DNA of 64,000 nt from Candidatus Paraluminiphilus aquimaris (GTDB lineage Bacteria > Pseudomonadota > Gammaproteobacteria > Pseudomonadales > Halieaceae), in contig NZ_CP036501.1 of NCBI RefSeq assembly GCF_026230195.1, forward strand, positions 1,674,001 to 1,738,000, given 5' to 3'. The translations under genes were made by a program, and so were the position numbers. The notes under the pieces are model-generated. The model did no database searches, was not told where the DNA came from, and saw only the letters and a list, made by a program, of their open reading frames with translations. Shown piece by piece: positions 6,079-59,526 of this stretch; position 1 is the stretch's first letter; each line of letters begins with the position of its first letter.

Positions 6079-6238
6079 AATACGTTTCCTGCAAATGCTT
6101 CGATAGGGTAATTACGATGCAACTCCAGCTCTCGTTTAAATTCCAAGAAAATTTATGATTAGGGACCTATCTGGGAAATGCTTTGATATTGTCTGCACAC
6201 AAAATACGTAAACCAATAAAAATATGAGGTGCGAGCGA

Positions 6239-7780
6239 GTGACAATTTCGTTATGTGAAAGACTTGAGCAGCGGCGCGAGTCGAAGCCCGACGCACTTGC
6301 CTACATTATTGATGGCGTTGAACGAAGCAATCTGAACAGCATCGATCACGTGTTTCGCATTGCCAATGGGTTAATCGCCGCTGGCATAGGAAAGGGCGAT
6401 CGCGTCGCGGTGCTGTCTCGCAATAGCGTCGAATGCGCGGAGGTGATGACAGGTATCCTGTGCGCGGGCGCCAGTATGGTTCCCGTTCCTAATACGGCGA
6501 CGCCAGAAGCTCAGCGCAATATGCTGCTCGACAGTGAGGTGAAGGGTTTGTTCGTGTCAGACCAATACCGCGACGCCGCTCTAACCAACTTTTTAACCTT
6601 GCCGTCAATTAGCAAAGCGCTTCGTTTCGCCCTTGAGACGCCCTGTGAACAGTTTGCGGATTATCATTTGTGGGCAGAGGCATTCTCCAGCGAGTCACCG
6701 GATGTTCACATGGAACTCGATGAGGAATATGACATCCTCTACAGCTCTGGCACCACCGGTATTCCCAAAGGGATTATTCACAGCCATTTAGCGCGTAACT
6801 TATTGATTTCTGGCACACAAAGCATGGCGTTCGATGAGGCTGTTGTGCTGACCAGCACACCACTTTACTCAAACACTACGATCACCACCTGGTGGCCCTC
6901 GGTATGGATGGGAGCGACACAAGTGATCATGCGTAAGTTCAATGCTGAACGTGCTAACGCGCTCATCGCAGAGTACGGCGTTACGCATGCCATGTTGGTG
7001 CCCGTGCAGTATCAGCGTATGTGGGCTGCCGAGAATCACAGGCCCGAAAACTGGCGCAGCGTGCAATGGCTGCTCTCAACCAGTGCACCGCTGTCTGCTG
7101 AGATGAAAAAGAAGATTCTGCGCGACACCCAAGCGCAGCTTCTCGAGTTTTATGGACTCACTGAGGGTGGCGTTGCCACCACGCTTGTGGCGAGAAAGGC
7201 GGCTGAACTGGGCAAGTTGGCGTCGGTTGGCCAAGTGCAGGCAGGCGGGGAGTTGCGCATTCTCGGAGAGGGGGGTGAGCTTCTTGGACCCAATGAGGCG
7301 GGCGAAATTGTGGGGCGTACCGGCATCATGAGCGATGGCTATCTCAATCGTGAGGAGGCCACAAAAGCAATGCACTGGTTTGATGAGGACGGAAGACTGT
7401 TCTATCGCTCGGGTGATGTGGGTTACCTCGACGAGGACGGCTGGTTGTTTTTGAGTGACAGAATCAAGGACATGATTCTCTCAGGTGGTCAGAATATCTA
7501 TGCAACCGATCTCGAGCACGCCTTGAACGCAATGTCGGACGTTATCGAGTCAGCAGTCGTTGCCAAGCCTTCAGAGCAATGGGGCGAGACCCCTTGGGCC
7601 TTCGTCGTGAGACGCGCCGGGTGTGACAAAACCGAGGATGAGATCCGTCTTGAAGCCAACGAAGCCCTGAGCCCTATTCAAGCCATTGCGGGCGTAACGT
7701 TCATGGACGAGTTACCTCGAAGCGACATTGGGAAAATACTGAAACGTCAACTTCGAGATAACTTTAAGGTTACGGCTTAA
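6239..7780 (+). CDS. Class I acyl-CoA synthetase (AMP-forming)
   Basis: This adenylate-forming ligase activates a carboxylic acid to its acyl-CoA. It has the P-loop motif YSSGTTGIPKG, the A5 motif EFYGLTEGG, the A7 motif YRSGDVGYLDEDG, the hinge DRIKDMILSGGQNI, and the C-terminal catalytic lysine in RSDIGKILKRQ. The GTG at 6239 (513 residues) is preferred because GAGGTG sits 7 bases before it; the ATG at 6224 has no ribosome binding site. The chain-length specificity is not deducible; it resembles medium/long-chain or aryl-acid ligases of the FadD/CaiC type. It ends by sharing four bases (TTAA) with the convergent amidohydrolase. Confidence 0.9.
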   Translation: MTISLCERLEQRRESKPDALAYIIDGVERSNLNSIDHVFRIANGLIAAGIGKGDRVAVLSRNSVECAEVMTGILCAGASMVPVPNTATPEAQRNMLLDSEVKGLFVSDQYRDAALTNFLTLPSISKALRFALETPCEQFADYHLWAEAFSSESPDVHMELDEEYDILYSSGTTGIPKGIIHSHLARNLLISGTQSMAFDEAVVLTSTPLYSNTTITTWWPSVWMGATQVIMRKFNAERANALIAEYGVTHAMLVPVQYQRMWAAENHRPENWRSVQWLLSTSAPLSAEMKKKILRDTQAQLLEFYGLTEGGVATTLVARKAAELGKLASVGQVQAGGELRILGEGGELLGPNEAGEIVGRTGIMSDGYLNREEATKAMHWFDEDGRLFYRSGDVGYLDEDGWLFLSDRIKDMILSGGQNIYATDLEHALNAMSDVIESAVVAKPSEQWGETPWAFVVRRAGCDKTEDEIRLEANEALSPIQAIAGVTFMDELPRSDIGKILKRQLRDNFKVTA

Positions 7781-10739: not shown

Positions 10740-10769
10740 AAAAAAAAACCGGGGCAGAGCCCCGGTTTT
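10740..10769 (-). terminator. Intrinsic terminator of the pcs-mcr operon
   Basis: A perfect GC-rich stem (10749-10755 with 10759-10765, extended by A/T pairs) with a 3-base loop is followed on the minus strand by nine T residues (10740-10748). It lies 20 bases after the mcr stop codon and separates the operon from the GPH transporter. Confidence 0.9.
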
Positions 10770-10789
10770 GGTGATCACCCTGCCCTGAG

Positions 10790-13700
10790 TTACACCGTAA
10801 CAGCATTTCCTCGGAAGATTTTCGATAGGTAGCGACTTTCCGACGGTGCCGGTGCCGGTACCGAGCACTGCAGAACCGCGTGCACCAACCGAATCATTTC
10901 TTCTTCGAGTTCCTTATCGTTAGAGGGCTCCTCCGTATGAGCCCGGCGCGTAAGCTGTACTTGGTTAATAGCCGGTACGGTAGGAAGTCGCTCGCCCTCA
11001 ACACCCAATGTGACCGTAAAGGCATGGAGAGAGTTTTTAACGAACAGTGCAAGCGCGAACTCCTCACGAGTCGATGCCAACGAGGTTTCAGGCGTAATTA
11101 ATACGATCTGAGAGTTGGGCACCAATGCCGAGGTTCGCGCTACACGGAAGTGATGCGTAAGCTGATCGTGAACAAGCTTTCTGAATTCGTGGTCGCTGAG
11201 GACCCGATCCCATGGCTCATTGGCGTTAGCAGCGAGTGCGTTCAGCGGTAACCGCTCAAACGGGCTGCTTACGACTACATCATAACCACCCTCATTGCGG
11301 AGAATGTCGTCAAGGCTACGCTCCAAGTCATCGCCTATGGCACGACACTCGATGTCGATACCGTTAGGATTATCAACACTGTGTGTCATGGCATTCGCTG
11401 AATCTTCCGACTTTGTGAGAACCCAGAGTTTTTCAACGTTTTGGGCAAGGAAACCGTTGGCTATGTGCGTCAATTCATTCCGCATAGAGTCGCCAATCAA
11501 GACGATGCGCTTGCCCTTTAGTTTCGCAACTTCTGTCTCATTGGGTGGTAACAGCAATTCTCCCTCGGTCACCGACCGGTCGAACTTGAGACCGCCCGAT
11601 GGGTGGAAGGTTTCCCCACTCACAATGTCATCGGCGAGGTGGAAAACGGTCGATAGCCCCACTTGCTCATCCGTTGGCATCTTATGAAGGTGCAGACGAT
11701 TGAGAATGCCGGTTTCGATTTGCTCCGCCTGTTTCGAGGTTTCTGAAAAGTCAAAGAACGGCGCCGGTGCATCGATAAACGTACCGAGGAACTGCTCTCG
11801 TTGTTCGTCGCTCAATATGCCTGCACGAACCAGGCGTGTCATGAGCTTAGACGCAATCCCCGTGTGCATAAGGTACTTCGATGAGTTACCCAAACCACTG
11901 GAGTCCCTAATCTTCAGGACAAGGCGTGCAATAGGCTTAGGCAGCGCGTCGATATCAATACCATCCACTGCATTACTTGCAAGTGACATAACGTCATCAG
12001 CACTGAATCCAGCGGACATCCCAGCTAAAATGGCCTTGTGCACCTCGTTGAGGCGCTTGTTCTCAAGTACCAATCTACCGCGCCGATCAAAGAGTCCGGG
12101 CGCTTCGGCAGAACCTCGCAGACGCGCACCGTCAACGGGGCCGGGTGCGAGGGCATTGATTTGAATCTCCGGACCAAGGTGGCGGGAGAGAATCTCAGCA
12201 AGTACGCGCTGACCTGCTTTAGACACGGCGTAGTCGGCACGATTTGGGTAGGCCACAGCAACGTATTTTTCACCACCGAAGTAGCTCGATACGTTGAGTA
12301 TTGAACCCTTTCCGCCGGCTTTCATTGCGGGGCTGAATTTACGAATAAGCGAGTAGTTGGAAATCAGGTTCGCTTCCATCGTGCGATCCCAATCCGCACG
12401 TGTCATGTCCACTACCATTTCCTCGGCACCTGAGATGCCCGCGTTGTTAATGAGGAAGTCCACATGGCCTAACTCGGCAACCGCGTGGTCATGTAAACGA
12501 TCCAGTGCTTCGGGGTCACCCACATCAATGCCACCGAGAATGGTCACGCGTGTCTCCGGCCGCGGGTAGCCAATGTTGCGCAATTCATCGACGATGTCGT
12601 CGCGCGCCTCAGCTAATTTCCCTTCGCTTCGGGCGCTCAGAAGGACGCGCGCTCCCGCGATCGCAAGGAAGCGACCAAGCTGCAGGCCAATGCCTAAGCT
12701 ACCGCCAGTGATGACGGCGGTTCGGCCCTTGTGAAGCCCGGGCAGCACTCTCGAAATGGAGGACGGCATTGAGCTTTTACCGGTTGAGCGTTTGATGCTC
12801 CGAGGCAACCACAAATTAATCGAATCCATTTTTCGGACCCGGTTTGTGAGTGTTGCCGCCCAATCGGCAGCAAACGTCAGCGCCTCTTCATCTTCGGTAT
12901 CGTAGCGGACCATCTGATTGGGCTGGACTGCCCAAGTGAGATCACCCGCGTTTGCCAGAGTCTCATCTTCATGACGCCAGCCACGAATCAACGCCTCGAC
13001 CGAGGCCCGGATGATCTCGTTCATTAAGTTACCGTGACGATCAGACGGGTTGGTTACGTAGACAATGGCCGGTGGCTCGCCGTCCGTAAACAAGCGATCC
13101 ATGTTGCGCGCGAAGCTTGACGCGAACGCAACGGGTGCGACCACTTCATCGCGAACAAAGTTAGCGACGTCTTCATCGTTGGCCGTGCACAGCGAATACC
13201 CGTACTCGCCATTTGGCTTTTGCGGCAGCAATATGACGCCATCCAGACGTCCGAAATGATCCGACATCAGCTGCATAGAGCGATCAACCGACTCTCTACG
13301 CAGGGGATCTAGGTGTGACAGCTGCACATCATCGAGATTGCGCGACTGCAACAGAGAACGCGCGTGACCAACTGTGGTCAGATTTCTAAAGGCGAGCATG
13401 ACGCGGGCGCCGCTCTGAATCTGGCGCTCTGCAAATGTCACGGCCTCCTGGTAGTCATCGCCGCCCAAAATAAGGACTACTTGACCCGAAAGATCCTCGA
13501 GACGCTTATCCGGCCAAGAAACGAGTTGTGAACGGCTCTGTGCCGGTACCTGCATGCCGTTGGTGACTTCGATGTGGTGCCCTGAGAGCGCTGAGGACTC
13601 ATCTGATGCAAGCCATATAATGCCCGATGCAACGTCGGTCGGCGTGGGGTACTTGTATTCAAGTCCACCGTCCGATGTGCGCGTTGTAATCATAAGGTCC

Positions 13701-14440
13701 CGGAACTCTTTGCCGGTACTGCCGGGCTCGACACCCTGCAGTTCATCCATTCGCGCAAAAACACTTTCAATGCGCTCTGACTCGATGGGACCGGGGAATA
13801 GCGTATTTACGCGAATACCCTGTTTCTCGCCCAGTTCAAGCGCGAGGCCCTTGCCCAGTGCATTGAGGCCGGACTTGGGTACAACGTATGGAATACGCCC
13901 GTAGTAATGTGTTCTTGAGAAGATCGTAGAAACGTTGATGATGCTGCCACCGGCCGACATATGTGGCGCGGCCGCTCGGGCCATGTTCCAGGGTGCGCCC
14001 AAGAGATTCATTGCGGAGTCAAACATCGTTTGATCTGAATCAGCCGCGCGCTTTTCTGCCTCGGTGAAAGGGATATCTCGGAGCGTAAACTTAGGTCCCG
14101 CAGCGCCCGCGTTGTTGACCAATACGTCGATCGGTCCGAAGGCGGCAACGGTTTTTGCAACGATCTGACGGCAGACCTCGGGATCCGCGCAATCACCTGT
14201 CGCGCTGACCATGAAGGTTTCTTCGAAGCCTTCGCCGACCAGATCGCCTATGAAATCATCGAGTTTGCTCTGATCTCGACCGGTTAGCATCACACGTGCG
14301 CCTTCGCGCAGGAGCTGACGGGTGATGTAGCTGCCGATTGAGCCGGCGGCACCCGTCAGGATGATGCATTTGTTGTCGAGTCGACGCCCAGCAATGGACT
14401 GCGTCAGCAAATCCTGGGGAATATCGCTCATATCATTCAT
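10790..14440 (-). CDS. mcr: Bifunctional malonyl-CoA reductase (3-hydroxypropionate forming)
   Basis: This NADPH enzyme reduces malonyl-CoA through malonate semialdehyde to 3-hydroxypropionate. It is 1216 residues; the Chloroflexus enzyme is about 1220. Two tandem short-chain-dehydrogenase halves are visible. The N-terminal half has TGAAGSIG (29-36), NNAG (109-112) and the YxxxK pair YVVPK (Tyr185/Lys189). The C-terminal half has TGGSLGIG near residue 575, NNAGISG, and YAVSK. In the Chloroflexus enzyme the C-terminal half makes the semialdehyde and the N-terminal half reduces it. The ATG at 14440 is chosen: AGGAG lies 8 bases upstream and it overlaps the pcs stop (ATGA). The frame stays open upstream into pcs but that extension is not protein-like. 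A strong terminator follows. Identification rests on length, architecture and the partner gene. Confidence 0.93.
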   Translation of the reverse strand: MNDMSDIPQDLLTQSIAGRRLDNKCIILTGAAGSIGSYITRQLLREGARVMLTGRDQSKLDDFIGDLVGEGFEETFMVSATGDCADPEVCRQIVAKTVAAFGPIDVLVNNAGAAGPKFTLRDIPFTEAEKRAADSDQTMFDSAMNLLGAPWNMARAAAPHMSAGGSIINVSTIFSRTHYYGRIPYVVPKSGLNALGKGLALELGEKQGIRVNTLFPGPIESERIESVFARMDELQGVEPGSTGKEFRDLMITTRTSDGGLEYKYPTPTDVASGIIWLASDESSALSGHHIEVTNGMQVPAQSRSQLVSWPDKRLEDLSGQVVLILGGDDYQEAVTFAERQIQSGARVMLAFRNLTTVGHARSLLQSRNLDDVQLSHLDPLRRESVDRSMQLMSDHFGRLDGVILLPQKPNGEYGYSLCTANDEDVANFVRDEVVAPVAFASSFARNMDRLFTDGEPPAIVYVTNPSDRHGNLMNEIIRASVEALIRGWRHEDETLANAGDLTWAVQPNQMVRYDTEDEEALTFAADWAATLTNRVRKMDSINLWLPRSIKRSTGKSSMPSSISRVLPGLHKGRTAVITGGSLGIGLQLGRFLAIAGARVLLSARSEGKLAEARDDIVDELRNIGYPRPETRVTILGGIDVGDPEALDRLHDHAVAELGHVDFLINNAGISGAEEMVVDMTRADWDRTMEANLISNYSLIRKFSPAMKAGGKGSILNVSSYFGGEKYVAVAYPNRADYAVSKAGQRVLAEILSRHLGPEIQINALAPGPVDGARLRGSAEAPGLFDRRGRLVLENKRLNEVHKAILAGMSAGFSADDVMSLASNAVDGIDIDALPKPIARLVLKIRDSSGLGNSSKYLMHTGIASKLMTRLVRAGILSDEQREQFLGTFIDAPAPFFDFSETSKQAEQIETGILNRLHLHKMPTDEQVGLSTVFHLADDIVSGETFHPSGGLKFDRSVTEGELLLPPNETEVAKLKGKRIVLIGDSMRNELTHIANGFLAQNVEKLWVLTKSEDSANAMTHSVDNPNGIDIECRAIGDDLERSLDDILRNEGGYDVVVSSPFERLPLNALAANANEPWDRVLSDHEFRKLVHDQLTHHFRVARTSALVPNSQIVLITPETSLASTREEFALALFVKNSLHAFTVTLGVEGERLPTVPAINQVQLTRRAHTEEPSNDKELEEEMIRLVHAVLQCSVPAPAPSESRYLSKIFRGNAVTV

Positions 14441-17400
14441 CGAAGTGCTCCTGCTGATCCTGTTTCTACTTTTGTGAGTGTTTCGCCCCGCTCCATAGCG
14501 TCGCGGATTGCCCAAGCGCGATACAGCTCGTCTCGGGACTTTAGGTTGGTACGAGGTAATGCATGCATGGCGACATAGTTCGCACCCGCATGACGGTTTT
14601 CCCACATGGCCTGGTGCGCTTCAGGCACGCCTTCCATCGGGATAATGGTTGGCGGCAAGACGCTGATGTGACCTGCGGCGATTCGCTCTTGCATCTCTGC
14701 AAATTCACGGGCCGTATTAAGGTGCGTTCCGCGTATCTCCGCAGTGGGCATCAGAATGCGGCGTTGGCGCATCCAGACTTGCGGAGCATAAAAACTAAAG
14801 CGTGCGCCTTTAAGGTCCTCTGAGTAGACAATTTTGCCGACATTGGGTTTGACTAAAGAGGTCGCTAACGCGAGGCCATCGCGACCTGCTCGCTCGAATA
14901 CAACGTCTGGTAGTCCGCGCTTGTCCAATGTATTGCGAAGTAGTGGGGCGATGGCTGAGCCAATTGGCTTGAGCGTGCGATCTGAAAAGGCACGGACCGA
15001 TTCCTTAAATGCGGCCGACTCCGTGAACGGGTTGGGCATTTTTTGGAAGGGACCGGGTGGGTCAAATTCATCACCGAGTCGACGCTCGATCTCTTCGAGA
15101 CTGACCACTCCTTTCATTTGAGCGCCGAAGCCAAGGGACGTAACGAACTCGCGCTGTGAGACCGTGTCGACCAGTACCGCCACTTGTGCACCGCGCTGGC
15201 ACCCAACCTCGATCGCTTCGATCGCGACGGGGTCAACAATACCGTCCTCGGCACCGGGGCCGTAGACCACGAGTAACGACTGACCTGCTCGCAGTCCCGC
15301 TTTCGAGAATTGTGAGGCGGGGGTGGAGGCCCCGGCCTTGCCCATAAAGGTAAAGCGATAGCCCGATGAGGCGCCATAAAAGGTGAGCACACCATTTTCT
15401 CCAAGCAACTGGAATGAACGTGGGAATGCGGTTTCACCTGCGTGTGAGACAGAGTAATCAATCTGCCCACCGACTTTCTTTTCAGCCTCGGCAACAAACG
15501 CTTCGCCTGCCGCCTCCCAAGCGTCCCATTCTTTGGGGTCATCGGGTACGGCCGTGAAAATATCGGACCAACGGCTGTCTTTTCGGTTGATGGCGTGACC
15601 ACCCACGGCTTCGACACGTTCGCCTCGGTTTTCACTAGAAACCATACCCAGCGCACCACAGCTGGAGGAAAGCGCACTGCGCAAGCAGTCATAACCCGTA
15701 CCTGTGGAGGCTCCCTCGACAAATAGACGTTTACCGGGTTCGATAGCCAGCGTGTTGTACAGAGCACGATGAATCGTGCCCATGGTTAACCCATAGGATC
15801 CCGCTTCCTCGATACTGATTCCCGGCAGTTTGGCGTGGAGCTGCGGTCCTTGTACCGTCAAGAATTGAGCGTGGCTGCCATCGTTGCGTTCGTAGCCCTG
15901 AATTCGGAAGTCCGCCGCCATGGGGTCAAGCCCCTGATCGGGCGCCATAAGCTCGCTCTGCCCTGAGTAAATGGTGACGATGTCGCCGACTGACAAACGG
16001 CCTTCGCGGACCAAGTCTTGCCCGAGCTGAGCGACAATACCGACACCACCCGAACCGGTTACCTGCACGTCGGCATCGCGCGCATCAAAGGGTGATACAG
16101 GAATGCCGGTGATTGCCCAAATGTCGTTGAAATTCATCTCTGAAGCGAGAATGTAGACCAAGGCTTCGTTGGCGCTGGGTAAGGGAGTTGGCAACACTAA
16201 CTCTTTCTCAGCAACCTCAGGGTCGCCGTGAAGAGGACTGCCGTCTTCATGCGATCGCATGACACCGTAGCCCAATTGGTATTGAGGAATGGGCGTAATG
16301 CCGGGGAAAAAACTGGCGCCCATGGGTAACAGTTTGCCCTCATCGATCAGTGCTGCGCGTTCATCCTGAGACGCATCGGGCTGCACTGCTTTAGGTTTGG
16401 GCGGTAGCGGTGCGCTACGCTTTTCAAGGAAAGCGGAGATACCCTCAGGGCCACACTCGGGGTCACAAACACCCTTAGCGAAAAGCTCAGCCTCGCGACG
16501 CAAGCCGGCAGCTTGTCCGTCACGCGCGCCGGTCAGCATCGCATCGATGATGAACTCGACGGGTTTTGTACGCCCACTATTGCGAATTTGCTCGAGTGCC
16601 CCAGCAACGCCGGAGTGGGTCGTCAGCGACTCGTCGATTGCAAGAGCCTGCTCTCGTTGATCCTTAAGTTTCTTCCTGCGCGCCATTGATACTTTTAGGG
16701 CATCACCACCTGAAAAGTGGTCCCTGAGCGCTGCCATCGCAGCTTCAACCGTGGACAGGCCCTCAGTGGTCACAATGTCGTCGATCAGCCCGATTTCAAG
16801 CGCTTTTTCGGCATCAATCGTGCGACCATCGAGCATCATGCGCAACGCTTCTGCGGCACCGTCTACACCCTGTGCGTCAAAAAGCTTCCGGGTTAAACGC
16901 TGTGTGCCGCCATACCCCGGTAACAGATTCAAATTGATCTCAGGCTGTCCGAACTCCGCGTGTTGCGCGGCAATGACGTGCGAGCAAGCAAGAACAAGCT
17001 CGTTACCACCACCAAGGGCAGGGCCATTAACGGCGGCGATAATGGGGATATCGAGGTTTTCTAACGTGGCAAAGGCGGTTTGCGCGGCGTTAGGAAGGGT
17101 TTGAGCAGATTCTAAATCACCCTTTTCACCGATCTTTAGGAGCTCCTTCACGTCAGCACCTGCAACGAAGGTGTTGCGTGCGCCCGTTACCACCATGGCT
17201 GACAAATCGTCTTGGTGGGCAAGCTGCGTTAGCGCCGTGTGCAACTCGTCGAGTGTGCGCTCGCTTAAGGCATTGACCGGTGGACTGCTAATGACCACAA
17301 GGGCCACCAGGCGACCGGGCGCAATTTCGTGCGTTTCCACGCGGAGATATCGCCAGGTCTGCACGACGCGACGCGCCTCGGTTAAGCGGCCGAAGTCCTT

Positions 17401-19848
17401 CCACTGCGTGACAGCGGTGCGGATTTCATCGACCGATTCGGGGTTCTTCAGTGTCGAAATGTCACCCAGCGGCTGATCCAGCAGAATCGAGCGCAATGTC
17501 CGGCGCATGTATTTTCCAGATCGCGTTTCGGGGAAGGCTGAAACCACCAAGAAGTCAGATGGGACTGCCGTCGCACCCTTTTCGGATCGGACTAACGACT
17601 GAAGTCGCGCCAGATCGTCATCGGATAGCTTTCGCCCGGCTGCAGCAACCAAAAACGCTACTGGCGTTTCGCCTTTTTCATCGTGAGGGGCGCCAACGAC
17701 AACCACGTTGCCCACTGGCGAGTCCTCTCGCAGCGTCTTGTCTCTGAGGATGGCCCCTTCGATTTCCTCGGTGCCGATGCGATGCCCCGATACGTTGATA
17801 ACGTCGTCAGAGCGACCATGGAGTGTGAAGGCGCCGTCGTCGTGCTGACGTGCGTAGTCGCCCTGCGTATAAGTAAGTTCACCACCCCATCGATTGAAAT
17901 ATACCTCTGTGAAGCGGTCGATATCGCCACGCCAGCTGTTCTCGAATAAATTGTCGGCATCGCCCCACAGCGTTCTTGCCAGATAGGGGTAGGGCTGTGT
18001 GATAACGAGCTCTCCTTTTTCTCCGGACTCGGCTGTACGCCATTGGGTTACCGTACCGTCCTGAGCGGTTTCCTCTGCAACGCGTACCTCCGCCTGCACC
18101 CAGGGAAGTGGCCATGTTTTTGCATCAGCAGAGAGCGGCTTGTATCCGCCCCAAGGGCAGCTGAAGACAATGCCACCATGCTCGGTTGCCCAGTAGGAGT
18201 TGATGTAGTGCTTGCAAATATTGTCCATCGCAAACTGCTGAACAGCGGGGGAGACCGGTTCCGCACAGAATGTCCCGACACGCAGCGACGACATGTCAAA
18301 GTCAGCCATTTCTCGCGCACTTGCGGGGTCTGTCATTACCGCTTTGAGGAAGGTTGATCCCGCCTTGAACAGCGTTACTTTGTACCGTTCGATAATCGAG
18401 GAGAATCGACCTGCATGCGGAAACAGGGGTGAGCCCTCTGCGATAACCGTGGTCATACCCTGAACCAGCGGTGCGGCAATAAGATAGCTCTGACCTGTAA
18501 TCCAGCCGGGGTCGCCAATGACGTAAAGGGTGTCATCCTCGGTAGCGCTGAAGACGGTTCGCATCGTGTGGCTCACACCACTGAGCCAACTGCCGTGTGT
18601 GTGCACGACACCCTTGGGCTTGCCCGTAGAGCCTGACGTGTAAATGATAAAGAGGGGGAAGTTGGAATCAACACTCTCTACCGGAAGCACGGCGTTAAGC
18701 TTGGCCCACAACTCCGCGGCACTATCACCTGAAAGATCGGTAAAGGAAGAGAGACCCAAATGCCCAGCAATCCTTGCCTTCGCTGTATCGACCAGGTCGT
18801 TTGACCACTTATCCCGAGCATGCTCCACGATCTCTTGCCCGGTGTAGTCGACCACTATCACGTTGTCGATGTCGTGCTTTGCGTCGGCAAGCTGGCGTGC
18901 AACAGCCGTTCGCAGTTCCGCCGTCATCTCGGCGGGCAGTGCATTTTGCTTAGCTATCGAAGCACCAAGCTCACGCATCAAGTCCGAACGTTCTAGGGTG
19001 ATTTCTCCTGCCAACGCCTCGTGAACATCGTTGTAGAGGGTTTCTGCTAAGGCACCCAGATCGTAGGTTGCCAAAACGGTTTGCAAGGTTTGTAACGCTG
19101 TCTCCCTCGGAATGTAGTTATCGAGCGCGGGGTCGGTATACGTACCCTTGTAAGCGACAACCTCGGCGTTTCTGTAACCACCGTCAGCGGTAATCACTAA
19201 CTTAGCGCCTGCGTCGTGGATGCGGTCGGAGAGCGTTTTGGCGGAGAATCCGCCAAACACGGGCGTATAGACTACCCCCATGCGTTGGGCTGCGAGCATG
19301 TAAAAGACCTGCTCGGGAATATTGGGTAGGTTAAAGGCGATGCGATCGCCTTTCGAAAGCCCCAAGTCTTTCAGAACTTGCATCCGCGCCACGACTTCTT
19401 CAAAAAGGACGCGGTAACTGAAGTGCTGCTCGGTAACCGGTCCGCCACGACCCTCGTTCTTCGATGGATCCCAGCGATCACCTTCAAAGATAATAGCCGT
19501 CTTGTCAGCGCGGCCCTGTAGCAAGTGACGATCGACTAAGTTAAAGCACGCGTTTGTTTGTCCACCCGTAAACCATCGGTAGTAGGGCGCCGCAGATTGG
19601 TCCAGCACGGAGGACCAAGGGGTCCAGTCCTCATCGTCCAATGCCACATTTTCACCGCGAGAATCCCAGCCCACCCAGCCGCTATCGCCGGTGCGAGCAA
19701 GCCATGCACCGCTGGAGGCGTTCTGCCAGTGAATCTCTCTCGAAGCGACTTCCGCATGAAACTGATCGGCATCGTTCTGTATGTGGTTTCTAAGCGCATC
19801 CTCATCGGACTGTGACGGTAAAACGCCCCAGGTACGGTCATCGCTCAT
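14437..19848 (-). CDS. pcs: Propionyl-CoA synthase (trifunctional)
   Basis: This 1803-residue fusion would convert 3-hydroxypropionate to propionyl-CoA using ATP, CoA and NADPH in one enclosed reaction chamber. Domain 1 (about 90-800) is an acyl-CoA synthetase: the P-loop IIYTSGSTGKPKG starts near residue 401, with YWATEHGG near 552, and the C-terminal lysine in TRSGKYMRR is Lys779. Domain 2 (about 840-1090) is an enoyl-CoA hydratase: ALGGGNELVLAC carries one catalytic Glu (about 950) and QPEINLNLLPGYGG the second (about 970). Domain 3 (about 1180-1700) is a zinc-free medium-chain reductase resembling crotonyl-CoA carboxylase/reductase, with NFNDIWAITGIPVSPF and EGASTGTG. Length and order match the Chloroflexus and Erythrobacter enzymes. 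GAGGGAG precedes the ATG. It is the first gene of the operon with mcr. Confidence 0.95.
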   Translation of the reverse strand: MSDDRTWGVLPSQSDEDALRNHIQNDADQFHAEVASREIHWQNASSGAWLARTGDSGWVGWDSRGENVALDDEDWTPWSSVLDQSAAPYYRWFTGGQTNACFNLVDRHLLQGRADKTAIIFEGDRWDPSKNEGRGGPVTEQHFSYRVLFEEVVARMQVLKDLGLSKGDRIAFNLPNIPEQVFYMLAAQRMGVVYTPVFGGFSAKTLSDRIHDAGAKLVITADGGYRNAEVVAYKGTYTDPALDNYIPRETALQTLQTVLATYDLGALAETLYNDVHEALAGEITLERSDLMRELGASIAKQNALPAEMTAELRTAVARQLADAKHDIDNVIVVDYTGQEIVEHARDKWSNDLVDTAKARIAGHLGLSSFTDLSGDSAAELWAKLNAVLPVESVDSNFPLFIIYTSGSTGKPKGVVHTHGSWLSGVSHTMRTVFSATEDDTLYVIGDPGWITGQSYLIAAPLVQGMTTVIAEGSPLFPHAGRFSSIIERYKVTLFKAGSTFLKAVMTDPASAREMADFDMSSLRVGTFCAEPVSPAVQQFAMDNICKHYINSYWATEHGGIVFSCPWGGYKPLSADAKTWPLPWVQAEVRVAEETAQDGTVTQWRTAESGEKGELVITQPYPYLARTLWGDADNLFENSWRGDIDRFTEVYFNRWGGELTYTQGDYARQHDDGAFTLHGRSDDVINVSGHRIGTEEIEGAILRDKTLREDSPVGNVVVVGAPHDEKGETPVAFLVAAAGRKLSDDDLARLQSLVRSEKGATAVPSDFLVVSAFPETRSGKYMRRTLRSILLDQPLGDISTLKNPESVDEIRTAVTQWKDFGRLTEARRVVQTWRYLRVETHEIAPGRLVALVVISSPPVNALSERTLDELHTALTQLAHQDDLSAMVVTGARNTFVAGADVKELLKIGEKGDLESAQTLPNAAQTAFATLENLDIPIIAAVNGPALGGGNELVLACSHVIAAQHAEFGQPEINLNLLPGYGGTQRLTRKLFDAQGVDGAAEALRMMLDGRTIDAEKALEIGLIDDIVTTEGLSTVEAAMAALRDHFSGGDALKVSMARRKKLKDQREQALAIDESLTTHSGVAGALEQIRNSGRTKPVEFIIDAMLTGARDGQAAGLRREAELFAKGVCDPECGPEGISAFLEKRSAPLPPKPKAVQPDASQDERAALIDEGKLLPMGASFFPGITPIPQYQLGYGVMRSHEDGSPLHGDPEVAEKELVLPTPLPSANEALVYILASEMNFNDIWAITGIPVSPFDARDADVQVTGSGGVGIVAQLGQDLVREGRLSVGDIVTIYSGQSELMAPDQGLDPMAADFRIQGYERNDGSHAQFLTVQGPQLHAKLPGISIEEAGSYGLTMGTIHRALYNTLAIEPGKRLFVEGASTGTGYDCLRSALSSSCGALGMVSSENRGERVEAVGGHAINRKDSRWSDIFTAVPDDPKEWDAWEAAGEAFVAEAEKKVGGQIDYSVSHAGETAFPRSFQLLGENGVLTFYGASSGYRFTFMGKAGASTPASQFSKAGLRAGQSLLVVYGPGAEDGIVDPVAIEAIEVGCQRGAQVAVLVDTVSQREFVTSLGFGAQMKGVVSLEEIERRLGDEFDPPGPFQKMPNPFTESAAFKESVRAFSDRTLKPIGSAIAPLLRNTLDKRGLPDVVFERAGRDGLALATSLVKPNVGKIVYSEDLKGARFSFYAPQVWMRQRRILMPTAEIRGTHLNTAREFAEMQERIAAGHISVLPPTIIPMEGVPEAHQAMWENRHAGANYVAMHALPRTNLKSRDELYRAWAIRDAMERGETLTKVETGSAGALR

Positions 19849-19893
19849 GCTTTTCTCCCTCTCGAAAAATCGTTGACGGAGGAGGCCGATTCA

Positions 19894-19905
19894 GCAGACG
19901 TCTGC
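19894..19905. promoter_or_regulatory. 12-bp perfect palindrome upstream of pcs, possible operator
   Basis: GCAGACGTCTGC is a perfect 12-base palindrome, 46 bases upstream of the pcs start, in the 209-base spacer between pcs and the threonine dehydratase gene. It is positioned as a repressor or activator site for the pcs-mcr operon. No regulator gene is adjacent, and no confident promoter elements were identified. Confidence 0.3.
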
Positions 19906-20057
19906 AACGAATGCGACTTGCATCCAGAGCACACCTGCCAACAAGCACCGGAAGCCCGGTTCTCCCCACCGCTTGATTACGCCCAAGGTACGTGAGGAGG
20001 TAGTCGGTAGATCACCGGAATTGGTAATTTGTCACATGGTAAATACTGAGTATTGAG

Positions 20058-22074: not shown

Positions 22075-23376
22075 TCATTGCCCTTCCTTGGAAAGGTGTG
22101 CCAACGAGCCTGCATTTTTCTCCCAATTGCGGCCATCGAAGGGCGTGTCGTAAATGGCGTCGATGGTCTCGGGTTTAATACATCGCGCGTTGACGCTCAC
22201 CCCGTCCGGATTGGACCGTGGGATATAGAAAGACTTAACGCCACACCGGCTACAGAAGTAATGCTTCGCCATACCGCTGCCGAAGGTATACAGGGATAGC
22301 AATTCCTCGCCCCGAGTCAGTGTAAAGCGGCTTTCCGGAACTAGCAGGTGCTGATAGTGATTGATCTCGCAAATACTGCAGTTGCAGGTATGAGTCACCA
22401 GCACTGCGGGCGCCTCAACTGTCCACTCAACGCTGCCACAGTGACATCCTCCTGTGTGCGTTACACGTGGACCGGCCTCAGCCGCCTCTACTTTTTGGCG
22501 CCTGATGCGAATCTGTTCAATCAGACCGGAGGTGTCCCATCGACCGCCACCATTCACTTGCACATCCGCATACTGCTCATCGACCAGTGTGGCGATGGGT
22601 AAGTGCAGACCCAATCGGTCGGCAACATCGAGCGCAAACCCTAAGTCTTTTCGCATCCAATCGATGGCGAAGCCAAAATTGTATTCTCGCTTTGCAATCG
22701 TCGCAGCCCGATTCGTCAACTGCCATGATTGCGCCGCACCGCCTTGTATCGCCCTCGTTACCTCGTCTATGTCGAGGCCTGCACATTCAGCAAAGTGGAG
22801 TGCCTCCGATAGGCCACCCAAAATACCGGCGATAGCAAGTTGGTTTACCATCTTTGTTGTCTGGCCACTTCCCACACCGCCCATGAGCTGAGCATGCTTT
22901 GTGTAACAGCCCATGACCGGTTCCACTTGATCAAACGCTGCACTGTCTCCGCCCACCATTGTCGTCAGGACACCGTTCTCCGCGCCCGCTTGTCCGCCGG
23001 ATACAGGGGCGTCCAAAAAGTGAACCCCAATGGCGTCGCAGGCATCGTGCATCTCTAATGCAAGTTCTTTCGATGTCGTGGTGTGATCTACCAGCAGTGC
23101 GCCTTGCGTCATCGTGGACAAAACACCTTCAGACTCAGACGTGACCGCACGAACGTCGCTATCATTGCCTACGCACAGAAAGACAACGCTTGCACCGACG
23201 GCCGCTTCTGCGGGGGTTGGTGCGGAGGATCCACCAAATTCGTCGACCCAGGCGAACGATTTAGTCTCGGTGCGGTTGTAGACGCATACGTCTAAACCAT
23301 GACGCTGTAAGTGGCCAGCCATGGGATAGCCCATGGCGCCAAGGCCGATAAAGGCAACGCGTTGTTGACTCGACAT
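22075..23376 (-). CDS. Beta-hydroxyacid dehydrogenase fused to a GFA zinc domain
   Basis: This 433-residue two-domain protein begins with a complete 3-hydroxyisobutyrate dehydrogenase-type enzyme (about 1-295). It has the NAD(P) motif GLGAMGYPMA (11-20), the substrate motif DAPVSGGQAG (122-131) and the catalytic lysine in GQTTKMVNQ (Lys175). A GFA/CENP-V-like zinc domain (about 305-420) follows, with GGCHCG (Cys311, Cys313), CNCSIC (Cys331, 333, 336) and CSRC (Cys375, 378). Both halves have intact key residues and the frame is continuous. The dehydrogenase half could act on 3-hydroxypropionate, 3-hydroxyisobutyrate or a tartronate-type substrate. The GFA half may bind glutathione or a thiol adduct. 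The ATG at 23376 replaces a further upstream start that lacks conserved sequence. Such fusions are unusual. Confidence 0.9.
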   Translation of the reverse strand: MSSQQRVAFIGLGAMGYPMAGHLQRHGLDVCVYNRTETKSFAWVDEFGGSSAPTPAEAAVGASVVFLCVGNDSDVRAVTSESEGVLSTMTQGALLVDHTTTSKELALEMHDACDAIGVHFLDAPVSGGQAGAENGVLTTMVGGDSAAFDQVEPVMGCYTKHAQLMGGVGSGQTTKMVNQLAIAGILGGLSEALHFAECAGLDIDEVTRAIQGGAAQSWQLTNRAATIAKREYNFGFAIDWMRKDLGFALDVADRLGLHLPIATLVDEQYADVQVNGGGRWDTSGLIEQIRIRRQKVEAAEAGPRVTHTGGCHCGSVEWTVEAPAVLVTHTCNCSICEINHYQHLLVPESRFTLTRGEELLSLYTFGSGMAKHYFCSRCGVKSFYIPRSNPDGVSVNARCIKPETIDAIYDTPFDGRNWEKNAGSLAHLSKEGQ

Positions 23377-23428
23377 GGGAGGGGTTCCTGATGCAAGGTT
23401 TAGACACAATTTCCGGAGTTAGTTGACC

Positions 23429-35832: not shown

Positions 35833-36783
35833 ATGAATCCCAATTATTTGGATTTCGAGCAGCCAATCGCTGAGCTCGAAATGAAAATCGAAGAGCTCAA
35901 AACCGTCGTTGATGATTCCGAAATCAATATCAGCGATGAAATAGATCGACTCAAAGCTAAAAGTCACAAGCTGACTCAGTCAATCTATCGAGATTTGAGT
36001 GCCTGGGATATTGTCCGCGTTGCGCGCCACCCGCTTAGGCCCTACTCGCTGGACTACATTCCCTTGGTTTTTGAGGACTTTGACGAGTTGCACGGTGATC
36101 GGCATTTTGGCGATGACAAAGCGATTGTGGGTGGCGTTGCCCGCTTGAATGGCCGCCCAGTAATGGTGATCGGTCAGGAGAAGGGCAGAGGGGTTAAGGA
36201 TAAAGTCCACCGCAATTTTGGTATGCCAAAGCCTGAGGGGTACCGAAAAGCCCTGAGACTGATGGAGATGGCTGAGCGGTTCAATATGCCAGTTGTCACC
36301 CTAATCGATACGCCGGGAGCTTATCCGGGAATCGATTCCGAGGAGCGCGGCATTTCCGAGGCTATTGCTCAGAACCTGGCCGTCATGTCGCGTCTGCGGA
36401 CTCCGATCATTTGTGTTGTTATTGGCGAGGGTTCCTCAGGCGGTGCCCTAGGTATCGGCGTGGGTGATCATCTCGCCATGCTGCAGTACTCAACGTATTT
36501 CGTTATTTCACCCGAGGGCTGCGCCAATATCATTTGGAAGAGTAGCGAGTTTGCCCCACAGGCGGCAGAGGCGATGGGGGTTACCTCGTCCACGTTGCAA
36601 GAGCTGGGGATCGTCGATACGACCATTGAGGAGCCCATGGGCGGTGCTCACCGAGATGTTGATGAAATGGCGCGGCGCATCAAAGAGCATGTATCAGGTC
36701 AACTGGATCGTCTTTGCAGTACGGATACAGATGAGCTTGTCGAGGCGCGCTATCAGCGGCTGATGGCCTACGGTAGTCACTAA
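35833..36783 (+). CDS. accA: Acetyl-CoA carboxylase carboxyltransferase subunit alpha
   Basis: AccA together with AccD transfers the carboxyl group from carboxybiotin to acetyl-CoA, giving malonyl-CoA for fatty acid synthesis. The 316-residue protein is full length and has [31 protein letters not shown] and the oxyanion-type [12 protein letters not shown] segment. The N-terminal coiled coil (about 10-50) is normal. It starts the conserved run accA-tilS-pyrG-kdsA-eno and stops four bases before tilS. Its product malonyl-CoA is also the substrate of the Mcr encoded 21 kb away; the two loci are separately transcribed. Confidence 0.97.
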
Positions 36784-56788: not shown

Positions 56789-56861
56789 TTACCAGTGCTT
56801 TACTTGCCTTATTCGTGGTGTTCGCTTGTAGTTGGGTTCGTTTGAGTCACTGGGGGAGCAT

Positions 56862-57629
56862 ATGCTTACTTTTGAAGTAAACGAGTATTTATTGCCAAAA
56901 AAGCTGTTCTGGTATTTGTGGTTTGTTTGCTGTGGATTAGTCGTGTGCGATTCCGTATTCACATTTCACGACGTCACGGGCTACTACGTTTTCTATCGTG
57001 TTTTCGATATGACAAGAGAGGAGAGCATCCCTAATTGGTATGCCTCAATTCTTCTATTCTGCATTTCACTCACCTGTGCTCTTACATACGCGATTCAAAG
57101 ATATCGCGTTGAGAGACATGTCGCAGCGCCGTGGTTGTTTTTTAGCGCCTTTTTCATCTTTTTGTCGATGGATGATGGCGCAAAAATTCATGAGCGTCTG
57201 GGCAGTTTTTTTAGGGAACTTACGGAGGAGAGCAGTGGTATGTTCACAGTTTTCCAACCCCTGCTGGAGGGCGCATCTACTTACTCTTGGCAAGTCTTTG
57301 TATTGCCAGTCTTCCTCTTCTGCGCCTTTTTTATATTGTTATGGGGATTCAACAATATCTCGGTACCTGAAACACACCGATACATGATCTTGGGCGGATT
57401 CTTCATAGCAATTGCTTTGGGATTAGACTACTTCGAGGGTCTTGTCGATAACGAGGTGATTGATCTAGATGGAAGGGCTCTGTCTGTAGACGCCATAGAG
57501 CATTACCAGCGCGTCTTAGAAGAGTTTTTAGAAATAACAGGTTTTCTTTGTATCCTTCGCGGACTGTGGATACACCTATTGAGCTTGGAATCTCAAATAA
57601 GCCTGTCAGTACGTGAGGTTGGGAATTAG
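56862..57629 (+). CDS. Uncharacterised integral membrane protein
   Basis: This 255-residue protein has about six membrane segments (near 18-35, 60-80, 92-108, 140-163, 175-193 and 220-240). Conserved-looking polar residues sit in or next to segments: FLSMDDGAKIHERLG (about 105-119), ALGLDYFEGLVDNE (about 192-205) and EHYQRVLEEFLEITGF (about 217-232). Repeated Asp/Glu/His in a membrane setting suggests a buried metal or proton site, but I recognise no named family. The ATG at 56862 has GGGGGAG 5 bases upstream. It lies between pilE and the minor pilin operon, without overlap with either. Confidence 0.85.
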   Translation: MLTFEVNEYLLPKKLFWYLWFVCCGLVVCDSVFTFHDVTGYYVFYRVFDMTREESIPNWYASILLFCISLTCALTYAIQRYRVERHVAAPWLFFSAFFIFLSMDDGAKIHERLGSFFRELTEESSGMFTVFQPLLEGASTYSWQVFVLPVFLFCAFFILLWGFNNISVPETHRYMILGGFFIAIALGLDYFEGLVDNEVIDLDGRALSVDAIEHYQRVLEEFLEITGFLCILRGLWIHLLSLESQISLSVREVGN

Positions 57630-57674: not shown

Positions 57675-57905
57675 ATGGCGCCGCCTAATTCATGGAACAT
57701 TGATCACTGGGCTAAGGAAAGCAAACCAATATCCCGCGAAGCGATATGCACCGCAGTAAATGCAAGGGGACTTTATCGGTTGGTAGACACACCGGCGCGC
57801 CCACTGTCCAATCCGTTTGCTCCCACGCGATTTGAGTATAGATCGCCGATTAGGGTCGATGTTTCAAAACAACTTGATCGATACGAATACTTGCCCACAA
57901 CCTAG
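57675..57905 (+). CDS. Possible small ORF, unsupported
   Basis: A 76-codon frame with an ATG at 57675 fills the gap between the membrane protein and the convergent minor pilin gene, ending four bases inside the latter. It has no clear ribosome binding site, signal peptide or recognised motif. It may be chance. Confidence 0.2.
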   Translation: MAPPNSWNIDHWAKESKPISREAICTAVNARGLYRLVDTPARPLSNPFAPTRFEYRSPIRVDVSKQLDRYEYLPTT

Positions 57906-58885
57906 CTATTGCTATTACTACTGCTACTACTACTGCTACTACTGCTACTGCTATTGCTACTACTTCCGTTGCAGCTTTTACTGCTTATGCCGCCACTACT
58001 TCTGCTGTTACTGCTACCACTATTTTTATCCCATGAAGGGCCTCTTGTGCACAAGCTCGCGTCGTTTGTCAGCTGGATATAAAATTTTTGTTTGTAGTCA
58101 CTCGCAGTAAGATTAAACGTGACTGAACACATCCCGGAGCTAGCGGTACCATTGCCCGTGCAGTACATATTAGTGGGGTTCAAAGTAACGACAGAGGATG
58201 TGTCCTGAGATATTTTGTCGCGTTTACACTTCGCTTTCGAGGCTCCGCTCTTTGACCGTTCAAAATCGCAAAAAGATGTCGATATCGTGGCTACGAATTG
58301 CCCGTCGTTGGGGCAGGTCATGTCGGTCCCATAGATTTTTATCTCAGCATTTTTCCCCTTGCTACCCCATGACTTACTTTTGCTACTCCCAACGAAGGGT
58401 AGCGTCGTGCACGCGGGAATTGAGTCGTCGGTGCCCATGAACACTGACAGGGCCTCATGATCCCCCGCAATGGCCGTCTTTAAGGCGATCTTGTTAGTGC
58501 CATCCATAATGGCGTAGTCACCACTAGTCTTGATAGATAATTTTGTTCCGTCCTGTTCATAGGTCGCTTTTAATGCCGCTAGTTTTTCCTTATCTGCATC
58601 AAGAAGTCGCTGACGATCTATAGTACGGCCGGCATCATTATTTGCATTCGCAAGATTGAAGTTCTCCCCATCGGCATATACGTCATGTCTAGCCTTCTCT
58701 ATTGACGAGACATTTTCCGATAGCATTGCGACCCTGGCGTCTCCTTTCGCTTTTGACTTGATCGTGTCTGAAGCCACGGTCAGACCCGTAACGACGACGA
58801 CGGAAAGGGCTGCGGAGGCAAAGACCGTTTCGATCAAACTCATGCCTCTGACGTACTTCAAATACCGCTTCATGTGTTTACTCAT
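57902..58885 (-). CDS. PilV-like minor pilin with polyserine tail
   Basis: This 327-residue prepilin-like protein has a leader ending at Gly14, then MSLIETVFASAALSVVVV with Glu at mature position 5, resembling PilV. It is much longer than typical PilV (about 150-200 residues). The head has several cysteines, and the C-terminus is low-complexity Ser/Asn: from about residue 285 it is Ser-rich, ending in a run of 12 serines broken by Asn. It is the last gene of a four-gene operon, 14 bases after pilX. Its function as a tip or priming pilin is inference. The serine tail is encoded by a trinucleotide repeat. Confidence 0.82.
   Translation of the reverse strand: MSKHMKRYLKYVRGMSLIETVFASAALSVVVVTGLTVASDTIKSKAKGDARVAMLSENVSSIEKARHDVYADGENFNLANANNDAGRTIDRQRLLDADKEKLAALKATYEQDGTKLSIKTSGDYAIMDGTNKIALKTAIAGDHEALSVFMGTDDSIPACTTLPFVGSSKSKSWGSKGKNAEIKIYGTDMTCPNDGQFVATISTSFCDFERSKSGASKAKCKRDKISQDTSSVVTLNPTNMYCTGNGTASSGMCSVTFNLTASDYKQKFYIQLTNDASLCTRGPSWDKNSGSSNSRSSGGISSKSCNGSSSNSSSSSSSSSSSSNSNS
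57905..57964 (-). repeat. Trinucleotide microsatellite encoding polyserine
   Basis: About 20 consecutive codons of AGT/AGC with a few AAT, read on the minus strand, form a near-perfect triplet repeat immediately before the stop of the PilV-like gene. Length changes by slippage would keep the frame and vary the tail length. Confidence 0.85.
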
Positions 58886-58899
58886 TCAGTTTTCTCCAG

Positions 58900-59526
58900 T
58901 TAAGGGAGGGCACACGGTGCTAGTCGATCACTCCAAGTGGCCGGCAACAGGTATACAGTGTTCGAGCTATCCACTTCGACGCTTACTATTTGCGAGACGG
59001 TAGCGGAGGCTACACGATAGGCAGCGCTAGCGTAAATTCTGTAAAGATATCGCGTTTCACTACCTACTGTGTTGGCCCCTAGTGGTTTAGCTCGGTAACT
59101 TGCAGTTGCTTCAAGGTCCGTATCAATTTCCACGTTATCAAGCATTACCTCGAAACAGTTTGAGGTAGCGTCAAGACCACTTCGGGTTTCCATCTCCGTT
59201 ATCGAGTCTTGTAGCGCCACCTCTGCAGCATAGAGCGAAGTTGTGAGAGCTTGTGAGTAGCCCGCCGAGCGGAAGTTGTCCACCGTGGCGACGATCATGC
59301 TTCGTGTGGCAAAGAGCGATAATATCGCGAGTATGCTAACGACTGCTGTTGTAACGTAACCCGAAGAACAGCCGTTTGCAGCGTCTTTACTACCCAAGCG
59401 TCTAGTCGCTTTTGTTGCTACTCTTCTGCAAAAATAATGAGCATACGTTCGAGAGGGAGCTTTCGGCACCGTTATGGAATCGCGGCTTTGCAAGTCGCTT
59501 TTAATGGATGAATCTGGGTTTATCAT
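58900..59526 (-). CDS. PilX-like minor pilin
   Basis: This 208-residue protein has a single hydrophobic N-terminal-type helix at about 56-80 (GYVTTAVVSILAILSLFATRS), followed by a segment (ALTTSLYAAEVALQDSIT) typical of PilX/GspK-family helices. The likely prepilin cleavage is after Gly56, but no Glu occupies mature position 5, as is common in the PilX/GspK type. A leader of about 56 residues is unusually long; a later in-frame start cannot be excluded. It overlaps the pilW-like gene by four bases (ATGA). Confidence 0.72.
   Translation of the reverse strand: MINPDSSIKSDLQSRDSITVPKAPSRTYAHYFCRRVATKATRRLGSKDAANGCSSGYVTTAVVSILAILSLFATRSMIVATVDNFRSAGYSQALTTSLYAAEVALQDSITEMETRSGLDATSNCFEVMLDNVEIDTDLEATASYRAKPLGANTVGSETRYLYRIYASAAYRVASATVSQIVSVEVDSSNTVYLLPATWSDRLAPCALP

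Follow-up and report, generated by a model that had tools for sequence, protein, structure and literature searches.

The 64,000-nt stretch analysed here (the window; positions 1,674,001 to 1,738,000 of NZ_CP036501.1, Candidatus Paraluminiphilus aquimaris) carries, on its minus strand between positions 10790 and 19848, two full-length genes which, judged by domains, structure matches and motifs, encode propionyl-CoA synthase (Pcs) and malonyl-CoA reductase (Mcr), the signature enzymes of the 3-hydroxypropionate bicycle (Table 1). Residues 17-1790 of Pcs align with 6eqo_A (1855.7 bits, E=0), an entry which we take to be the Erythrobacter PCS and whose database record reads acetyl-CoA synthetase. 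The protein comprises ACS_N, AMP-binding, AMP-binding_C, ECH and zinc-dehydrogenase domains, with ligase, hydratase and reductase thus fused in one polypeptide of about 1800 amino acids. The motif TSGSTGKPKG and the residues K779, E950 and E970 are intact, the three residues being invariant across the eight rows of alignment A1; their roles as ligase lysine (K779) and hydratase glutamates (E950, E970) are assumed from the acetyl-CoA synthetase and enoyl-CoA hydratase families. The open reading frame (ORF) of Mcr as listed starts at 14605; with the ATG at 14440 taken as the start, a protein of 1216 amino acids results, which matches 8hi4_A (1015.9 bits) and 8hjw_A (948.9 bits) over its full length and displays two tandem short-chain dehydrogenase/reductase (SDR) stretches with catalytic YxxxK at 185 and 737, as in bifunctional Mcr. 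The pcs stop codon (TGA, 14437-14439) and the mcr start codon (ATG, 14438-14440) share the bases of an ATGA, and the hairpin 3' of mcr, 11 pairs followed by T's, has the longest stem in the scan. The ribosome-binding-site-like GAGGGAG or a close variant occurs in the 10 upstream rows of the window's own clade. The GC content is 56% for pcs, 55% for mcr and 54% for the window. The first-pass annotation had described a complete operon with a 4-base overlap, its own terminator and intact active-site motifs and had been cautious about function; its naming, its claim of completeness and its caution all hold. Catalysis by the two enzymes and flux through them are what we infer from these features. 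The pair itself is already known in Luminiphilus, for which Mcr is reported in the passages cited here (PMC9802188).

Table 1. Features of the pcs-mcr locus and related genes. Positions refer to the window unless stated otherwise.
Feature	Position	Strand	Basis
pcs, trifunctional propionyl-CoA synthase, 1803 aa	14437..19848	-	domains, 6eqo_A alignment, motifs
mcr, bifunctional malonyl-CoA reductase, 1216 aa	10790..14440	-	ATG at 14440; structure matches, SDR stretches, motifs
ATGA overlap of pcs stop and mcr start; putative translational coupling	14437..14440	-	sequence
Intrinsic terminator-like hairpin 3' of mcr (10769 to 10745)	10745..10769	-	hairpin scan
Ribosome-binding-site-like GAGGGAG before the pcs ATG	19855..19861	-	sequence
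TGATCT-N16-CGTA, ECF11 (RpoE/ChrR)-type promoter match; putative function	19989..20014	-	motif scan
Probable accA, acetyl-CoA carboxylase alpha subunit, supplying malonyl-CoA; housekeeping, outside the operon	35833..36783	+	PF01039 match 36118-36561
4-Hydroxybutyryl-CoA dehydratase (predicted)	L180:8908-10437, own genome ~348.9-350.4 kb		score and motif

Trees of 58 Pcs and 41 Mcr sequences, built by a quick method and with long-branch or odd-composition warnings for some rows, agree in a single deep division with full support. Its one side, clade A, contains Halieaceae and Woeseiaceae together with individual metagenome-assembled genomes (MAGs) that carry the label Pseudomonadales, Myxococcales, Longimicrobiales, Lysobacterales or just proteobacterium, while clade B comprises Chloroflexota, Sphingomonadales/Erythrobacter, Rhodopila/Phenylobacterium, Gemmatimonas and others. 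By these trees, the Pcs and Mcr of the window belong to a deep clade apart from the Chloroflexota and Erythrobacter enzymes, which is new as far as we have searched. The structures matched above presumably come from clade-B kinds of organism, and we know of no characterised Mcr or Pcs in clade A. The phylogenetic check proposed in the first-pass annotation gave a mixed result, as the two proteins are clear homologues of characterised Mcr and Pcs but fall in this clade without characterised members known to us. Among named relatives, the loci of which are the best 80 of 183 stretches encoding such relatives, the nearest Pcs are those of Luminiphilus and other Halieaceae MAGs. In each of the 39 named clade-A loci with both genes (loci and genomes are labelled L and G), mcr follows pcs on the same strand, and the 4-nt overlap is found in 29; in the remaining 10 the longest ORF starts further upstream or the frame is broken (the latter in L115 and L159). 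Two clade-A loci have room for Mcr and yet lack it. One is L158, where the 6.4 kb following pcs contain no mcr, and the other is L076 (G012), a one-contig phototrophic member of the Halieaceae with Pcs and no Mcr match in the genome search, which looks like a loss. Pcs without Mcr at the locus also forms a separate set within clade B (8/8 rows: L163, L166, L171, L162, L164, L160, L170 and L074), which includes Azospirillum, the Halieaceae genome G025 and others and perhaps serves the use of 3-hydroxypropionate or acrylate. The genes neighbouring the pair in the window are common only to its own subclade, and in another Luminiphilus subclade the pair is located downstream of recN- and smpB-like genes, with a tmRNA further downstream in L105. 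As the neighbours differ between subclades, the unit has changed place. A tRNA/tmRNA integration site at the window locus was considered and rejected, as neither a tRNA nor a tmRNA lies in the window. In the smpB-linked subclade, the pcs leader contains a segment of about 45 nt with hardly any variation, CTCTGGGGATGACTCTGTC..CTTC.GG.ATGCCGTATCGCC, which at L105:8150-8333 and in seven relatives (alignment A2) gave no Rfam match, a fold z of -1.8 and weak covariation. The Rfam scan of the window gave no match at the gathering threshold, and a riboswitch in the pcs leader of the window was dismissed on this ground together with a chance-level snoRNA match (E 3.3) and a fold z of 0.33 versus shuffles.

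A putative promoter of the ECF11 type is located 166 nt upstream of the pcs start. The cited passages give the consensus TGATCCnnnnnnnnnnnnnnnnCGTAnnnn, of the form TGATCC-N16-CGTA, for a singlet-oxygen-induced sigma factor resembling RpoE/ChrR (PMC5507510), and the Shewanella RpoE2 sites presented in a second source share this form (PMC4336711); the site in the window follows the pattern of ECF11-regulon promoters with TGATCT in place of the consensus TGATCC. Upstream regions were searched with the loose motif T[GA]ATC[CT]-N16-[CT]GTA, the strict form being counted separately. From 86 loci, 8 with less than 150 nt upstream were dropped and 78 were scanned, i.e. 38 Halieaceae-type, 9 other clade-A and 31 clade-B loci, the division of clade A being our own by record title. 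The loose motif is present in 34 of the 38 Halieaceae-type regions (the exceptions are L108, L111, L116 and L136, the last being the locus of Chromatocurvus halotolerans) and the strict form in 28, while the motif was found in 0/9 other clade-A and 0/31 clade-B loci. In a set thinned to 19 loci with less than 10% shared 10-mers, 15 carry the loose and 10 the strict motif. As background, five further strict matches occur in 3.07 million strand-bases, corresponding to 0.0008 per 500-nt region; one such site lies 60 nt before an apparent photolyase (L162), a known core target. The regions carrying the motif otherwise hardly align, and insertion sites and leaders differ between clades, which argues that the shared motif is not mere flank copying. 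These counts point to a conserved ECF11-type promoter match before pcs-mcr, which is new as far as we have searched. In L076 (G012), the promoter is near-consensus (TGATCC-N16-TGTAAT).

The host genome, a single contig of 2.72 Mb with 98.7% completeness, is that of a Luminiphilus-type member of the Halieaceae, an aerobic anoxygenic phototroph. It encodes a Photo_RC pair of the pufL/pufM type. One operon groups PUCC and a geranylgeranyl-reductase-like protein with a BchG-like UbiA prenyltransferase and a PpsR-like regulator of PAS-PAS-Fis architecture, and genes for a BLUF protein and BchF lie close to it. A run of five genes encodes a propionyl-CoA carboxylase (Pcc) carboxyltransferase of 569 amino acids, a biotin carboxylase/biotin carboxyl carrier protein (924), a glyoxalase-fold epimerase-like protein (136), a mutase (715) and MeaB (324); since the NCBIfam names for the 569- and 924-residue subunits are only related ones below the cut-off, propionyl-CoA as the carboxylase substrate is deduced from the neighbouring genes. 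In the window itself, the PF01039 carboxyltransferase match (genome 1710118-1710561) marks an ORF as probably accA, so that the first-pass statement that no other bicycle gene lies there was not quite right. With this, the set leading from acetyl-CoA to succinyl-CoA is present (acetyl-CoA carboxylase (Acc), Mcr, Pcs, Pcc, epimerase and methylmalonyl-CoA mutase (Mcm), the biotin carboxylase of Acc lying outside the test). For the other half of the bicycle, mesaconyl-CoA (beta-methylmalyl-CoA) hydratase (PF19315) gave 0 matches in the genome, with the control positive in 3/14, and the sole HpcH_HpaI protein, of 288 amino acids and adjoining what reads as a MurJ-like flippase, is a weak match (46 bits) to malyl-CoA/citramalyl-CoA lyase. 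Three class III CoA transferases are present, with roles in the bicycle unassigned. By gene content, the genome thus encodes the half leading from acetyl-CoA and two bicarbonates to succinyl-CoA, while the glyoxylate-fixing half is incomplete. Accordingly, the complete 3-hydroxypropionate route announced in the first-pass annotation holds for the first half only, and of the genes it proposed to look for, those for Pcc, Mcm and the photosystem were found, whereas the search gave no mesaconyl-CoA hydratase and nothing convincing as a malyl-CoA lyase. No RuBisCO was found in the genome, and the Calvin cycle was therefore discarded. The idea that the pair replaces a missing glyoxylate shunt was discarded as well, as an AceA-like isocitrate lyase is present (malate synthase was outside the search); PF00463 matches occur in 128 of 140 genomes of the family. 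RuBisCO matches occur in 3/140 family genomes, two of which correspond to L092 (G007) and L093 (G082); G007 (60% complete) combines a Photo_RC pair with a strong RuBisCO-family match in a 492-residue open frame.

Across the same 140 genomes, Mcr is found in 47 and Photo_RC in 53, and 39 of the 47 have both. Among the 78 high-quality genomes, Photo_RC is present in 19/19 with Mcr and in 6/59 without (Fisher p 2.6e-13, kinship ignored). This distribution suggests that pcs-mcr is linked with reaction-centre genes across the family, which likewise is new as far as we have searched.

Taken together, we consider it probable that photo-oxidative stress induces the pair and that it serves to co-assimilate CO2 and spend reductant in a light-coupled manner, not to close an autotrophic 3-hydroxypropionate bicycle. 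The promoter context suggests that CO2 uptake through pcs-mcr is tied to light. We hold the light-coupled role with moderate confidence and the reading as a stress response with less. Pcs and Mcr would convert malonyl-CoA via 3-hydroxypropionate to propionyl-CoA and, with acetyl-CoA carboxylase before and the Pcc-epimerase-Mcm operon after them, acetyl-CoA and two bicarbonates would yield succinyl-CoA. The Pcs/Mcr route costs three NADPH and one ATP (to AMP) per malonyl-CoA turned into propionyl-CoA, and each acetyl-CoA carried through to succinyl-CoA consumes two bicarbonates and three NADPH. The route would thus refill C4 acids without loss of carbon, at the expense of light-derived ATP and excess reductant. 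Transcription would most likely start from the ECF11-type promoter through a sigma factor of the RpoE/ChrR kind and rise with singlet oxygen; the identity of this sigma factor and the induction are what we infer from the promoter alone, since no rpoE-chrR pair was seen in the scanned 47% of the genome. Singlet oxygen would signal that light, bacteriochlorophyll and oxygen coincide, the same moment at which ATP and reductant should be plentiful, and a promoter sensing it would switch on the pathway that spends them. To our knowledge, no enzyme of the path from acetyl-CoA to succinyl-CoA carries an iron-sulfur cluster, while aconitase, an iron-sulfur enzyme, is needed by both the tricarboxylic acid cycle and the glyoxylate shunt. 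Freedom from such clusters would account for the retention of pcs-mcr in a cell that also has isocitrate lyase. It might even be speculated that Halieaceae pcs-mcr is a photo-oxidative stress effector, in which a sigma factor of the RpoE/ChrR type released by singlet oxygen activates an iron-sulfur-free, CO2-consuming path; the path would then drain excess NADPH and keep C4 acids coming when aconitase-dependent routes are damaged, and CO2 incorporation would be a stress response rather than autotrophy. We regard this stronger version as rather doubtful. For an aerobic anoxygenic phototrophic Porphyrobacter, 3-hydroxypropionate genes are reported to be up by day (PMC10674011, the main text of which, as excerpted, contains neither 'ChrR' nor 'sigma'). 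This daytime induction would fit a light-coupled role, though the Sphingomonadales loci tested lack the motif.

Several observations weigh against light-coupled co-assimilation under such a promoter. Of the 53 Photo_RC genomes, 14 have no Mcr match, and 8 of the 47 Mcr genomes have no Photo_RC match, six of the latter making up three sister pairs in the Pcs tree (in which the row of G106 was assigned by us on the basis of a named locus that agrees with it in contig number and match). All four Photo_RC-less Mcr genomes with a scanned upstream region keep the strict motif. As such lineages retain both the pair and the strict motif, possession of the unit does not depend strictly on phototrophy; the eight genomes are 54-87% complete, so that some of the absences may be gaps, and some are probably real. 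The isocitrate lyase of the host implies that pcs-mcr is not needed as the sole anaplerotic path. The distance of 166 nt from the site to the ATG makes for a long leader. The motif-less L158, counted among the nine other clade-A loci, nests with Halieaceae in the Pcs tree, so that the count could also read 34/39, or 34/47 for the whole of clade A. The motif was written from alignments of many of the counted loci after having first been spotted by eye, and all dyads of 4-mer, gap and 4-mer were therefore counted without reference to it. In the 38 loci, TGAT-18-CGTA and GATC-17-CGTA came first with 28 each; in the 19 thinned loci, both shared first place, at 10 each, with ATGA-14-TGGG, a dyad that in the window corresponds to the beginning of the pcs reading frame. 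L134 and L083 (the latter with an unsure start) carry the motif though they were unseen when it was written. In the scanned 47% of the host genome, covered by regular expression only, neither an rpoE-chrR pair nor a photolyase, an expected core target, was seen; the one sigma factor of extracytoplasmic function there looks like an ordinary RpoE/AlgU. Finally, three strict sites in about 1.29 Mb of this genome are approximately at chance level (0.17 per 64 kb expected).

Three other explanations were weighed. A full 3-hydroxypropionate/4-hydroxybutyrate (HP/HB) cycle, in which succinyl-CoA is converted via 4-hydroxybutyrate to two acetyl-CoA, would give photoautotrophy, and in the passages cited here eight Luminiphilus MAGs are claimed to encode it as a whole, as inferred by GapSeq (PMC9802188). 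By score, the host does possess a true 4-hydroxybutyryl-CoA dehydratase of 509 amino acids (727 bits to 6vjr_A, 557 to 1u8v_A and at most 143 to HpaB monooxygenases) which has CFQRC and HRxSYVCK in common with 6vjr_A. The positions that we take to be the cluster ligands are kept in this protein. Its gene, however, stands alone beside a pentalenolactone-synthase-like monooxygenase and an acyl-CoA carboxylase subunit (the layout is similar in G059, L186), and the family, PF03241, occurs in 54/140 genomes including this one and also in six genera without an Mcr match (g2, g9, g10, g16, g19 and g20). Other Luminiphilus have a lower-scoring PF03241 protein, and in G058, the only one checked, two of the four ligand positions are lost by our alignment reading (C to Y and C to A). 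As this paralogue and the Mcr-less genera indicate, the dehydratase does not track pcs-mcr, and the lower scores and lost ligands make the HP/HB cycle rather improbable as the role of pcs-mcr throughout the genus. As the explanation for the pair in the window, too, we consider the full cycle quite unlikely. The G058 paralogue lies beside a CitE/RipC-like lyase, with a similar neighbourhood in L182, L183 and L184 by inspection of ORFs; the clusters at L187:1222-17347, where the ligand positions were checked, and in L182-L184 contain ORFs resembling MaoC, acyl-CoA dehydrogenase, class III CoA transferase and hydantoinase.

Alternatively, the pair might allow the cell to use or detoxify 3-hydroxypropionate or acrylate from outside, e.g. 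from dimethylsulfoniopropionate (DMSP), with Pcs at work and Mcr reversed or incidental. The Mcr-less Pcs set of clade B, L158 and the phototroph G012 would agree with this, as would a 3-hydroxyisobutyrate-dehydrogenase-like gene at 22075-23409, but the constant order of the two genes, their frequent overlap and the agreement of both trees on the main split speak against it, and the scan of 10 neighbouring ORFs named no gene for DMSP or acrylate. Such a use needs Pcs but no overlapping Mcr, and we consider it quite unlikely. Supply of propionyl- or methylmalonyl-CoA for odd-chain or methyl-branched lipids or polyhydroxyalkanoate (PHA), with little net CO2 gain, appears very unlikely. Propionyl-CoA is the direct product of the pair, ECF11 core regulons include furan-fatty-acid genes in the passages cited (PMC6852236), and an acyl-CoA ligase of unknown substrate at 6224-7780 stays nearby in the own subclade; yet the genome holds the full operon from propionyl-CoA to succinyl-CoA, no PHA gene was named among the same 10 ORFs, and the window neighbours are not common beyond the subclade. 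Of the three roles offered in the first-pass annotation, two have the best support, namely co-assimilation of CO2 and use of reductant by a phototroph; this support comes from pufLM, the full propionyl-CoA to succinyl-CoA operon and the ECF11-type promoter match. The use of external 3-hydroxypropionate is less likely.

Further sites of the ECF11 form were noted in the host genome. TGATCC-N16-CGTATT occurs at L193:16348 (-), genome 1451348, 152 nt upstream of the PpsR-like gene; it was rejected as a general feature of ppsR, being kept with spacer changes in G059 and absent in 8 other ppsR regions. TGATCT-N16-CGTAAA at L192:8923 (+) is located 94 nt before accD, within the trpA end, and is identical in 30/30 nt in G059. 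It was not accepted as a regulon member, as it lies inside trpA and the genome site count is at chance level; it is a lead only and may be due to chance. Control of pcs by PpsR was also rejected, TGT-N12-ACA not being found in 10 upstream regions of the own clade. Elsewhere in the window, positions 60907-63054 encode a 715-residue protein whose only Pfam match, a TauD-like dioxygenase domain, lies in the first third, and the neighbouring ORFs at 56832-57629, 57902-58885 and 58900-59526 gave no Pfam match. In the open-access literature, no paper was found that joins propionyl-CoA synthase with Congregibacter, none that joins malonyl-CoA reductase, propionyl-CoA synthase and HTCC2080, and, among the matches listed, none with both ChrR and Luminiphilus, which is weak evidence; the passages cited from PMC10949492 report RpoE-ChrR as absent in its strain KRV36 and have Congregibacter only in the reference list.

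Proposals for the role of Mcr and Pcs in marine aerobic phototrophs have included autotrophy, co-assimilation, a reductant sink and the use of 3-hydroxypropionate, and the conserved ECF11-type promoter match makes the question testable. If the proposed role is true, light-damage signals would act as the switch for CO2 incorporation in coastal photoheterotrophs, which bears on the effect of light on carbon yield. The separate clade also offers a new source of Mcr and Pcs enzymes. With the RpoE/ChrR (ECF11) regulon, the locus shares the promoter elements and the 16-nt spacing, with TGATCT in the window versus TGATCC; in contrast to the candidate described here, no CO2-incorporating member is named in the passages cited on that regulon, and the sigma factor was not found in the scanned 47% of the genome. 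The HP/HB cycle claimed for Luminiphilus (PMC9802188) concerns, in the passages cited, the same genus and an Mcr-based path from acetyl-CoA to succinyl-CoA, whereas the window genome shows the return half for one enzyme only, and its fused Pcs covers the conversion of 3-hydroxypropionate to propionyl-CoA. Erythrobacter and Porphyrobacter are likewise aerobic anoxygenic phototrophs with pcs and mcr side by side and an incomplete bicycle; the Sphingomonadales rows differ in belonging to the other clade, with 49-51% identity for Pcs and 40-42% for Mcr, and no ECF11-type motif was found in the 31 clade-B loci. The structures 6eqo (PCS) and 6k8s-6k8w (Mcr) presumably derive from these genera. From the Chloroflexus/Roseiflexus bicycle, the window genes are set apart by their single overlapping operon, the absent mesaconyl-CoA hydratase, the unconvincing malyl-CoA lyase and their separate clade, while the two fused multidomain enzymes and their motifs are the same, at 49-51% identity for Pcs and 44% for Mcr (L150, L169).

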